NCBI GenBank assembly: GCA_019113845.1
Contig: DXGQ01000054.1
Location: 1-64,000, forward strand
Direction: 5' to 3'
Length of the DNA: 64,000 nucleotides
Source: Candidatus Anaerobutyricum avicola
GTDB lineage: Bacteria > Bacillota > Clostridia > Lachnospirales > Lachnospiraceae
Positions 32,803 through 37,187 of this stretch are shown one piece after another. The translations under genes were made by a program, and so were the position numbers. The notes under the pieces are model-generated. The model was not told the DNA's origin and made no database searches. It saw only the letters and a list, made by a program, of their open reading frames with translations. How positions within the stretch are numbered: position 1 is the stretch's first letter; each line of letters begins with the position of its first letter.

Positions 32803-33148
32803 TGGACCTGAGGGGAATCGAACCCCTGTCCGAAAACCTATTCCGCACGGTATCTCCCATCACAGTCTTTATTTTGACATTCCCTCCGTCTGGCGTCTAA
32901 AGACAAACTCCAAACTTCAGTAGCTTCATATTACTTCATACCCGGCAAAGCTTACGGATACGAGTGTCCCACATAATCGGTGCCGGACTCTCAGTCTGTG
33001 GGTCTACTGAGGCCGACAGCTGCAACTTAGGCAGCGTATGCTAAATTATTATCTTCAGCGTTTATATTTAATTCCGAGTTTTAACGTGGTCCCGGACCAC
33101 GGATGGCTGCCCCACGTGCAAAGCCCCCGTCGAAACCAGTACAAGCCC
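32803..33148 (-). ncRNA. ssrA: Transfer-messenger RNA
   Basis: Minus strand: 5' GGGCTTGTACTGGTTTCGACGGGGGC, 3' GGACAGGGGTTCGATTCCCCTCAGGTCCA; acceptor stem GGGCTTG/CAGGTCC pairs; tag ORF 33027-33062 encodes NAEDNNLAYAA*. Confidence 0.95.
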
Positions 33149-33249: not shown

Positions 33250-33562
33250 GACAAATTTTACTTATTTTTCCATGTTTTTTATGCCAACACATTTTTTTAT
33301 AGAATACACAAATAAAAAAGAAAAAAATTGTTTTTGTTGCGTATTTTTCACCACATGGAAGAATGAGGATGCTATAATAAAAAATATCTAGAAGAGATAG
33401 CACTTAAGATACTAAAAGATGACACAACCACATTTACTTGTCTGATATAAAAAAAATCAGAAGTTTTTGTCAAAAAGTTGTTGAAAAAACTTCGAAATTA
33501 TTATATTATAAAAAATATGAAAGCGCTGGAACCATAATAGATGGTAGCGGGAGTGATTACGG

Positions 33563-34798
33563 ATGATAACAGTATATTCTTTATTTTGGTCAATTATCAA
33601 TTGTTGTCTGATGGCATTTGTTATATTCCTTCTCAGGACAAGGACGATGCTGATTTCCAAGTACGGCACAGCAGTACTGCGTTTTCTGATCCTGTGTTGT
33701 ATCATCAGGATCCTGCTTCCGGTAGAATTTCCGGAGCACCAGTACATACTGGCAGATAACTTTCTGTACTCATGGATAGTGAAGCACTTCAAGATTGTGC
33801 TGCATCCGGATTTTAAGAGTTTGTTGCTGACATTTCTTATTATCGTGTGGATTTGCGGAAGCCTGTTCAGCGGCTGTCGGCTCCTCTTGAAGTCGAGAAA
33901 AGTACAGAAGATTATCCGGGATAATGCCTGCGTGGAGTTCACGAGAGCCAAAGAGATTCTGGAGACGATCGAGCCAGATTGTCCATTACCGGTTCGTCTC
34001 TGTTCCGGGATTTCCGTTCCCGTGTTGGCAGGATATCTTCATCCGGCGATTTATTTTCCGGAGTATCCTTATAGCGACGAGGAACTTCGTTATGTGCTGT
34101 TTCACGAACATGCGCATTGGAAGAGGAAAGATATCTGGAAGAAGCTGATCATGAATATCATCTGCATTCTGGTCTGGTGGAATCCTGCAGTTTACATTAT
34201 CCGAAGAGAGTTGTCTCAGTTGCTCGAGTTCCGCTGTGATAAGACGCTGGCAAAGGATCTGGACGACTTTGAGATTGTCGGTTATCTGAATCTTCTGATG
34301 GTCAGTTACGAGCGGGCGAAGAATCCGCTCATCAAAACAAACCTGTACACCATCGAGTTTGTAAACACAGGAAAGCAGTACACGATCATGCAGAGATTTG
34401 ACTTGTTGTTAGACAGGCATACCGTCACCTCACACAGATTGCTGCCGCAGATGGTGATCGTGCTCTTGGCACTTTTGTGGATGTTCTGTTCGTATTACTT
34501 TATTTGGCAGACGAATTACTATGCATCAGAAAGGGAAATTCAAACTGAGGATGTATTACGACAACCTGTAGTTGAATCTTCCAATAATGATAATGCTTAT
34601 CTTCAAGAACAGGTAGATGGTTCATATATATTTCATTTTAGAAGTCATGCATTAGAAGTTTCGAAAGAAGATGTAGAGGCTGGTTTATATGAATATTATC
34701 CAGTTATTGAATATGAAAAAGATAAGAACATATTTTTCGAGTTCGTAGACCAAATAAAAGAGTATATAAATATTTTTTTCATAAAGGAGGATGATTAG
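33563..34798 (+). CDS. BlaR1/MecR1-type M56 family metallopeptidase, membrane bound
   Basis: Multiple N-terminal TM segments; zinc motif YVLFHEHAHWKRKDIWKKL (HExxH); ELSQLLEFRCDKTLAKDLDDFEIVGYLNLL; last TM and short ~100-aa tail with no penicillin-binding sensor domain. Confidence 0.88.
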   Translation: MITVYSLFWSIINCCLMAFVIFLLRTRTMLISKYGTAVLRFLILCCIIRILLPVEFPEHQYILADNFLYSWIVKHFKIVLHPDFKSLLLTFLIIVWICGSLFSGCRLLLKSRKVQKIIRDNACVEFTRAKEILETIEPDCPLPVRLCSGISVPVLAGYLHPAIYFPEYPYSDEELRYVLFHEHAHWKRKDIWKKLIMNIICILVWWNPAVYIIRRELSQLLEFRCDKTLAKDLDDFEIVGYLNLLMVSYERAKNPLIKTNLYTIEFVNTGKQYTIMQRFDLLLDRHTVTSHRLLPQMVIVLLALLWMFCSYYFIWQTNYYASEREIQTEDVLRQPVVESSNNDNAYLQEQVDGSYIFHFRSHALEVSKEDVEAGLYEYYPVIEYEKDKNIFFEFVDQIKEYINIFFIKEDD

Positions 34799-34800
34799 TT

Positions 34801-35043
34801 ATGAAAGTAATGAAACGAATAATCATTGGTATAATGGCTGGAACAATGGCTTTTTCAGCGATGCCTGCTACTATACCGGCATTGTTACAGATGCCAGCAG
34901 CAGTGGAGGCGGCAGAAATTGAACCAAGAGCAGATGTGGTTTATTGGATTTATAGGGAATTGGCAGATGGTACACTTCAGAAACGTCGCTGGAATGCAAC
35001 TAGAGGTTATTGGGTAGATCCACATTGGATTACAGTTGTATAA
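34801..35043 (+). CDS. Small secreted protein of unknown function
   Basis: 80 aa; signal peptide ending …VEAAEIEPRA; mature part DVVYWIYRELADGTLQKRRWNATRGYWVDPHWITVV; SD AAAGGAGG; starts 2 nt after the M56 stop. Confidence 0.82.
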   Translation: MKVMKRIIIGIMAGTMAFSAMPATIPALLQMPAAVEAAEIEPRADVVYWIYRELADGTLQKRRWNATRGYWVDPHWITVV

Positions 35044-35056
35044 TCTTGAAAAGAGC

Positions 35057-35102
35057 TTAAGAGAGGAGATTAGCTTTTAGATAATTTCCTCTCTTAATTT
35101 TT
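35057..35102 (+). terminator. Intrinsic terminator of the M56/microprotein unit
   Basis: TTAAGAGAGGA…TCCTCTCTTAA followed by TTTTT. Confidence 0.85.
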
Positions 35103-35150
35103 AGCTTTATAATGTGTCAATTTTTTAATTTTGTTAAATCATTATATTAT

Positions 35151-37002
35151 GAGTTGCCCGACAAATGGGCAACTAACAGCACTTTGAAAACTTAACACAT
35201 TAACCTCAAATATAGTATAATGGAGACAGATTTTAAACGGGGAGTGTACAACAAATGTCATTTGCTACAAATCAATCACAACAGATTAGTCTCTTTGATG
35301 CTACTGCAAATCTTACAGATCGTGAAAAGCGGTTGTTGGAGAAGTCCTGGGCGAAATATTTTGCAGAGAACATATTTCCAGAAATAGATGAAGCACCTTT
35401 TTCTGTGCTTTACAGCGACCGTCCTTCCAGACATAATACCCCAGTGAATGTAATCATTGGAGCATTGATACTGAAAGAAATCTTTGGGCTCACGGATGAA
35501 GAAATTGTGGAAACTCTTCCGTTTGATATCCGTTATCAGTATGCCCTGCATACAACCAGCTTTGAAGAACAGCCGCTGAATGACCGTACGCTTGGAAGAT
35601 TTCGTGCCAGATGCAATTCCTATGAGGAAATGACAGGCATAGACCTTATTCATGACTGTATTATGAAACTGTCTTCGAGCATGGCTACTATGATGAAGCT
35701 GAATACGGGAATGCGCCGCATGGATTCTCTGATGGTAGCTTCTAATATAAAGAAAATGAGCCGTTTGGAACTTCTGTACACCTGTGTAGCTAATCTTGCC
35801 AGGTTGATGAAAAAGCTTGAAGATTCGGCATTGCCAGAAGGACTGCTTCACTATACGGAAGATGATGACCATAACAGGGTGCTTTATCATAACCGCAGTG
35901 AAGACACTGACTCCAAAACGGATCAAATATTAAAAGATGCGGTGTTTATCATTTCTGCCTGTGGCAGCCGTTATGATGAATACAGTGAATATCAGCTTTT
36001 GATCCGTGCCATCAGTGAACAGACAAAATCTGACGATGATGGTAACCTGACGCTTAAGAGTGCGCATGATGGTATGGATTCAAAAGTCATGCAAAATCCT
36101 GCGGATCCAGATGCTACCTATCGTAAGAAGGCGGGTACGGAATACAGAGGATATATCGCCAATGTTGTAGAAGTGGCGGACGATAACCATAACAGCATTA
36201 CAGTTGACTATCAGTATGAGAAGAATACCTATAGCGACAGTCAATTTCTTAAAGACTATATTGAGCAACAGCCGGAGGATGGAGCACATGCCATACTCAC
36301 AACAGATGGCGGATACTGCGGAATGGAAAACAGCCAGCTTGCGAAAGATAAGAACATAACCTTAGTTACTACCGACCTTAAAGGAACCGAAGTCAGTGAT
36401 CACTGGGCAGATTTTGAACTCAACGAAGACGGTACAAAACTGTTAAAGTGCGCAGCCGGCCACGAACCCAAAAGCAGCGTCTATGACAAAAATACACAGA
36501 AATGTAAAGCATCATTTCCTCTGACTACGTGCAAAAATTGCGCTTATTATAACCAGTGCCACCCAACAGAACACAAACGCGTTGCCACCATTAAAATAGC
36601 GATGCGTACAGCATTTCATGCCAGACAGCAACGTTTCTTGAAAACGGAAGACTTTAAAACATTAGCGCATTTCCGAAACGGGATAGAAACGGTTCCTGCG
36701 GTACTTCGTAGCAGACACCATGTCGATAGGATGCCAGTCCGTGGCTATATCAAAACAAAACTATTCTTCGGCTTTAAAGTTGCCGGAATGAATGCCCGAA
36801 AACTGATCAGATATCTGACCGGTTTAGTTAAAGTCGCCACTTATCCGGAAATAGCCTGAAAATCATATAGAAAATCAGCATATCCGTATGGAGAAAATAC
36901 CCTCTAGGGAGTAAAGTGATTATTTTTGAAGCTAATGTGTTAAGTTTTCAAGGTGCAAATAAAAAAAGGTTACTATAAATCACCCGATTTGTCGGGCAAC
37001 TC
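35151..37002 (+). mobile_element. Complete IS1182-family insertion sequence (1852 bp)
   Basis: Ends GAGTTGCCCGACAAAT…ATTTGTCGGGCAACTC; 7-bp duplication ATATTAT at 35144-35150 and 37003-37009; encodes the transposase. Confidence 0.9.
35255..36859 (+). CDS. IS1182-family transposase
   Basis: 534 aa; YSDRPSRHNTPVNVIIGALILKEIFGLTDEEIVETLPFDIRYQYAL…, LTTDGGYCGMEN. Confidence 0.92.
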   Translation: MSFATNQSQQISLFDATANLTDREKRLLEKSWAKYFAENIFPEIDEAPFSVLYSDRPSRHNTPVNVIIGALILKEIFGLTDEEIVETLPFDIRYQYALHTTSFEEQPLNDRTLGRFRARCNSYEEMTGIDLIHDCIMKLSSSMATMMKLNTGMRRMDSLMVASNIKKMSRLELLYTCVANLARLMKKLEDSALPEGLLHYTEDDDHNRVLYHNRSEDTDSKTDQILKDAVFIISACGSRYDEYSEYQLLIRAISEQTKSDDDGNLTLKSAHDGMDSKVMQNPADPDATYRKKAGTEYRGYIANVVEVADDNHNSITVDYQYEKNTYSDSQFLKDYIEQQPEDGAHAILTTDGGYCGMENSQLAKDKNITLVTTDLKGTEVSDHWADFELNEDGTKLLKCAAGHEPKSSVYDKNTQKCKASFPLTTCKNCAYYNQCHPTEHKRVATIKIAMRTAFHARQQRFLKTEDFKTLAHFRNGIETVPAVLRSRHHVDRMPVRGYIKTKLFFGFKVAGMNARKLIRYLTGLVKVATYPEIA

Positions 37003-37187
37003 ATATTATATAATAATTATTTTTAGTTTTGAGTAGATAACGTTTAACTGGATTATTATTCTATTTTCTTTTCTCCCCTCCACTTTACAATTGACAAACC
37101 TTTCCCCGTATATAATAATACAGGCATGGCATACAACGTATATTATCAATAAAGAATGCGAATAAAAGAATGTGAAAGGAACTGAAC

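Follow-up and report, generated by a model that had tools for sequence, protein, structure and literature searches.

A secreted mini-protein that travels with a short-tail, BlaR1-type M56 protease in gut Lachnospirales

Gene pairs made up of a BlaI repressor and an M56 membrane protease are well known, and receptors of the BlaR1 type are familiar as sensors of antibiotics. Among the M56 proteins of gut anaerobes, many are without a recognisable sensor. One such protein is encoded in the window analysed here, a stretch of 64,000 nucleotides from Candidatus Anaerobutyricum avicola, where its gene is directly followed by one for a small secreted protein. The question raised by this locus is what a secreted protein of that size does beside a protease that has no sensor of its own. 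An earlier note, made from the letters of the DNA, described the protease as an orphan and proposed that it senses or processes the peptide.

The gene pair and its surroundings

The layout given in that note is confirmed by the open reading frames: a gene for an M56 protein with the HEHAH motif (residues 181-185) is separated by 2 nt from a gene for an 80-aa secreted protein (Table 1). A strong terminator was also claimed to follow. An inverted repeat with a run of TTTTT is indeed present and likely ends the transcript of the pair, but the repeat is not among the predictions of a consensus terminator scan, so the word “strong” is not yet warranted. Similarly, the DNA from about 34.5 kb onward was said to be AT-rich, and the dip is real. 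It also starts in the M56 tail of Eubacterium sp. An11 and of the CHKCI004 isolate, where the tails are equally AT-rich. The dip thus belongs to the gene as such, and a recent foreign import of this stretch is ruled out.

Table 1. Features of the gene pair and its flanks, with positions counted from the first letter of the window
Feature	Position	Strand	Basis
tmRNA (ssrA), upstream of the M56 gene	32803-33148	-	
Promoter TTGAAA-N17-TATTAT, together with the overlapping candidate operator	33481-33511	+	Promoter scan
Candidate BlaI operator TATTATATTATAA, overlapping the M56 promoter	33499-33511	+	Shared 13-mer
Gene for M56 (BlaR1-type) membrane metalloprotease, short-tail form	33563-34798	+	411 aa; PF05569, E=1e-23
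C-terminal tail of M56 (predicted to be extracytoplasmic), about 90 aa beyond the last TM helix	34526-34795	+	Hydropathy
Ribosome-binding site AGGAGG of the peptide gene, within the M56 3' end	34785-34790	+	Sequence
Gene for 80-aa secreted protein, M56 partner	34801-35043	+	ORF calling; no known family
Mini-domain of 40 aa, predicted mature part, with the pattern W-x-Y-x(4)-DG-x(4)-RRWN-x-T-x(2)-YWVDP-x-W	34921-35040	+	Predicted fold, conserved columns
Likely terminator (inverted repeat) at the end of the M56-peptide transcript	35057-35097	+	19-nt repeat, then TTTTT
IS1182-family element, inverted repeats at its ends	about 35143-37010		
Transposase of the IS1182-family element	35255-36859		

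The pair is flanked by the tmRNA gene upstream and by an IS1182-family element downstream. The ends of the element are 27-nt inverted repeats that are 93% complementary, and it sits between the peptide terminator and a phosphopantetheinyl transferase-like gene. At the M56-peptide locus of the sister species, the element is absent.

The protease belongs to the Pfam family Peptidase_M56 (E=1e-23) and has the hallmarks of an M56 zinc metalloprotease, namely HExxH and ExxxD on a four-TM scaffold. Its best relative in the PDB is the BlaR1 of Staphylococcus aureus (8exp), both by sequence (E=9e-10) and by fold. The predicted model of the protease is poor, with a mean pLDDT of 52. In an alignment of the M56 relatives, H181, E182, H185, E222, and D226 are invariant (59/59), and the loop arginine R278 is likewise kept in 59/59. 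The position aligned with the hydrophobic P1' residue of the BlaR1 autocleavage loop holds F or L in many members (F266 in the window protein), in a loop that aligns poorly. The C-terminal extracellular penicillin-binding domain of BlaR1 and MecR1 (class D beta-lactamase-like, SxxK) is absent from the window protein, Pfam finds no transpeptidase or beta-lactamase domain in it, and its match to the NCBIfam model blaR1_generic reaches 67 bits where the cut-off is 400. The absence of a beta-lactam-binding domain and the presence of a short outer tail only, both read from the letters beforehand, are thereby borne out; about 90 aa follow the last TM helix. The outward topology of this tail is predicted by analogy with BlaR1. 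The homologous tails of relatives are mostly 45-77 aa long with an ENxY..DG.Y.LY.NG pattern, and among the window species, An11, and CHKCI004, the rate of protein evolution in the tail is at least double that in the core.

A signal sequence and an AxA-type site can be recognised by eye in the secreted protein, and W, Y, and R abound in its mature part; here too the sequence agrees with the first description of a signal peptide and a mature part of about 40 aa. AlphaFold predicts a beta hairpin plus short extra strands, with a pLDDT of about 93-95 over residues 51-80, from an alignment of four sequences only. The mature part is evidently under purifying selection, with a dN/dS of about 0.07-0.18 against two sister species (An11 and CHKCI004). 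No significant match to the peptide was found among Pfam, NCBIfam, and PDB sequences, and a Foldseek search of its fold against known domains returned no match at E<=0.001. The peptide is an undescribed secreted protein family of gut Lachnospirales, for which there is no family model. A resemblance to WW domains was an impression that the fold and sequence searches do not support. Many family members end in a single cysteine (DWIxC) and others in A, V, or K, a possible sign of a disulfide or anchoring difference between subgroups.

Conservation of the pair and the location of its repressor

The peptide family was searched with the window peptide and then with a 38-position profile of the mature domain. 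The profile finds it in 40 of 397 Lachnospiraceae genomes, in half of the genomes of the host genus (12/24), and in 16 genomes from other Lachnospirales families; beyond those, one further genome was matched among 399 of the phylum. At three places in other families of the order (L171, L176, and L180), the profile matches the genome and a complete peptide ORF is not called; pseudogenes or rare start codons are possible there.

The earlier note had suggested a search of related genomes for M56 genes followed by short secreted proteins, and such a search does reveal conserved co-occurrence. Once the cassette neighbourhoods had been scored with local profiles and redundancy had been removed, the peptide gene was found beside an M56 gene in 59 non-redundant loci. 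The two genes overlap or are at most 17 nt apart in 49 of these 59 pairs, with overlap lengths that depend on the choice of start codon (the longest ORF was taken).

The linkage was examined further in 73 M56 matches from 20 peptide-bearing genomes, 24 of which are peptide-linked. Linkage was seen for 22 of 30 M56 proteins with an open frame of up to 445 aa compared to 2 of 43 longer ones (Fisher p=5e-10), and the two long exceptions appear to have overlong ORF starts. Some of the short entries that have no nearby peptide (8/30) are fragments or lie near contig ends. The peptide therefore belongs to an M56 subfamily that has no large outer domain. In one genome (G201, contig C8; L093 3398-4723), the peptide domain is found at the end of the M56 outer tail itself, without a signal peptide, and this is the one natural fusion found. 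Peptide and tail also covary beyond the M56 core, with a partial r of about 0.2, compared to 0.23 for a control of peptide and BlaI. Because the former is no stronger than the latter, the covariation shows that the cassette is inherited together rather than that its parts touch, and peptide-tail coevolution was dropped as proof of contact, being unspecific once BlaI serves as control.

The repressor is found in the same neighbourhoods. A BlaI-type gene lies directly upstream of the M56 gene in at least 47 of the 59 loci, and several of the remaining ones have BlaI in another gene order (e.g., L069, L151, and L085). One locus (L101 1895-3495) has three tandem BlaI-type genes ahead of a single M56-peptide pair. 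In its own genome, the window's M56 gene is one of three, and there are four BlaI genes. One of these, on contig C9 (L037 2859-3287), is unpaired and stands beside cbiQ-cbiO-cbiM, with a sulfotransferase/response-regulator cluster on its other flank (gene names were assigned by reading translations). In the sister genome G802 (L158) and in the genome G800 (contig of L026), BlaI, M56, and peptide genes are found together beside the same cbi genes. The C9 BlaI has orthologs in An11 (88% identical) and CHKCI004 (87%), both of which have the moved M56-peptide pair; the adjoining cbi genes are visible in An11 only, as the contig of CHKCI004 stops at this point. Most simply, the pair moved to the side of ssrA and BlaI stayed where it was, a direction that we infer from comparing these genomes. 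The claim that there is no BlaI holds for the immediate locus but not for the genome, where a BlaI orthologous to those adjoining M56 in relatives is kept at the cbi locus. “Orphan” is thus a misnomer for this protease: most relatives have the BlaI repressor within the cassette, and in this genome it is still present in trans.

The other BlaI genes of this genome are more varied in their settings. A second unpaired copy, on contig C39 (L038 2939-3331), is 67% identical to the C9 copy and has neighbours that look mobile-element-like: a single-stranded DNA binding protein, a sortase-like protein, and helix-turn-helix proteins. Copies similar to it are also present in An11 and CHKCI004. On contig C32 (L036 1426-2400), BlaI is followed by an M56 frame of about 191 aa, either a truncated gene or a minimal M56, just upstream of groES-groEL. 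On contig C4, a long M56 of 629 aa has a BlaI partner.

A candidate for a regulatory tie between the separated genes is the 13-mer TATTATATTATAA, which overlaps the -10 box of the M56 promoter as well as that of the C9 orphan BlaI promoter. It occurs in exact form four times in the 2.87 Mb genome and its reversed control not at all; the site was picked post hoc, and as a putative BlaI operator it is suggestive only. The other two exact sites (C42 and C47) were considered as targets and have no convincing gene behind them. The regions ahead of 49 BlaI genes from the wider family yielded no common palindrome or operator, and a universal BlaI palindrome was rejected on that ground.

A phage or plasmid origin was also considered. 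No relative was found in viral contigs, and there was no plasmid match. One database entry, MT839943.1 (L251), an UNVERIFIED “bacteriophage” from human faeces in Mexico, carries a complete BlaI-M56-peptide cassette in otherwise bacterial-looking chromosomal DNA. Such an origin was rejected, given that no plasmid matched and that the single “phage” match is an unverified faecal clone with bacterial-looking genes.

Explanations for the pairing

The conserved co-occurrence, the gene overlap, the specificity for short-tail M56, and the one natural fusion strongly support, at the level of sequence, a functional link between the M56 protease and the secreted peptide. One could consider the two as coincidental neighbours at an integration hot spot, given the tmRNA gene on one side and the IS1182-family element on the other. 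However, the pair is found at dozens of unrelated loci in many genera, and the sister species carry it without the IS element, so that chance can hardly account for it. The structure of BlaR1 bears on what the link may be. In BlaR1, the zinc site faces the cytosol and the sensor faces outside, autocleavage takes place in a loop between helices 8 and 9 (S283-F284), and the first outer loop contacts the sensor (PMC9834060). Adjacent genes would be in keeping with a protease that matures or degrades the peptide, but this is very improbable because the active site faces the cytosol, whereas the peptide carries a signal sequence and is exported. Also, the substrate expected in this family is BlaI, and the compact fold of the mature domain is conserved. 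Of the original proposal that M56 senses or processes the peptide, the link itself is supported and sensing is plausible, but processing is unlikely. Conservation of the catalytic residues, the predicted fold, the fusion, and the topology of BlaR1 fit a partner that acts on the outer face better than they fit a substrate or a neighbour with no relation to M56.

Such a peptide may still act in more than one way. That it diffuses as a quorum-type pheromone and is sensed by M56 on neighbouring cells is distinctly doubtful. The peptide is secreted and co-produced with its presumed receptor, some species have several paralogous cassettes per genome (e.g., three loci in G201), and the peptide sequence varies among lineages, all of which would suit a pheromone. 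Within the genus, however, the mature part is conserved rather than hypervariable, the prediction for it is a folded domain of 40 aa, fusion to the receptor would abolish diffusion, and no exporter, maturation, or modification gene was seen at the cassettes. Its compact fold, as predicted, and the one fusion with a receptor tail speak for a docked partner rather than a free pheromone. The peptide could also be the output of the system, a secreted protective, wall-binding, or antimicrobial mini-protein made by the operon much as BlaZ is for BlaR1/BlaI, in which case BlaI and M56 would sense an envelope threat with nothing more than the tail and loops. The effector of a BlaR1/BlaI system is typically encoded in the operon itself, the cassette neighbourhoods showed no other conserved target gene, and in its basic, aromatic character the peptide resembles many that act on walls or membranes, which lends this explanation some weight. 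It is nevertheless rather unlikely, as the peptide is tied to the short-tail form of the receptor and not to M56 generally, the overlapping genes suggest stoichiometric co-production, and the domain is in one instance fused to the receptor tail.

The explanation that we prefer, with a probability of a little under one in two, is that the pair supplies the membrane and outer components of a proteolytic signalling unit of the BlaR1/BlaI type in Lachnospirales. The unit would have three components, BlaI, a short-tail M56, and the secreted mini-protein; the peptide would dock on M56, and BlaI would be cleaved. In such a unit, M56 would keep the TM scaffold, cytosolic zinc site, and autocleavage region of BlaR1 and would have lost the penicillin sensor. 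The co-translated peptide would be exported, fold as a beta mini-domain of about 40 aa, and dock on the outer tail or loop of M56, either as a detachable sensor subunit or as an autocrine ligand. A change in this contact, brought about by the peptide level, an envelope ligand, or a stress felt by the peptide, would alter the protease activity; BlaI would then be cleaved, and the cassette promoter and other BlaI targets derepressed. In this species, the BlaI gene would have stayed at the ancestral cbiMQO locus, with the M56-peptide pair now beside ssrA. The genes themselves, their conserved linkage, the separate sites of BlaI and the pair, the catalytic residues, and the fusion are observed in the sequences, whereas the docking, the gating, the direction of signalling, the cleavage of BlaI, and the target genes are steps that we infer.

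Known systems and significance

The closest known systems are BlaR1/BlaI and MecR1/MecI of S. aureus and B. licheniformis. These share with the cassette an M56 zinc metalloprotease with a matching TM layout and HExxH...ExxxD and, in most cassette relatives, a BlaI-family repressor gene beside M56. Many cassette members may also have the hydrophobic residue of the autocleavage site, as far as the poorly aligning loop shows. The cassette differs from BlaR1 in that it has no class D beta-lactamase-like sensor (about 250 aa in BlaR1), having instead a tail that measures roughly 45-90 aa and, encoded by its own gene, a secreted mini-protein. No beta-lactamase or mecA/PBP2a gene was noted among the ORFs around the cassettes when their translations were read. 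The long M56 proteins of the same genomes, such as the one on contig C4, likewise form BlaI-M56 gene pairs, but they have long C-terminal regions and no peptide gene. In AgrD/AgrC and ComX/ComP, a small secreted product is encoded beside a membrane receptor, and in this the cassette resembles them. Their receptor is a histidine kinase, whereas that of the cassette is of the repressor-cleaving protease type; the cassette also has no linked maturation or export gene, and its peptide is predicted to be a folded domain. In the open-licence literature searched, no description of a secreted mini-protein partner of BlaI-M56 was found.

It is tentatively proposed that the cassette carries out BlaR1/BlaI signalling with a split receptor, in which the covalent sensor has been replaced by a secreted mini-protein of about 40 aa that gates a repressor-cleaving protease. 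If true, Lachnospirales would possess a transcriptional switch of a new, peptide-gated kind that is unrelated to beta-lactams, and the split-receptor switch would be present in roughly a tenth of Lachnospiraceae genomes. A mini-protein that travels with a sensorless M56, and is once fused to it, offers a concrete candidate, open to testing, for the signal or the sensor part that these proteases are missing.
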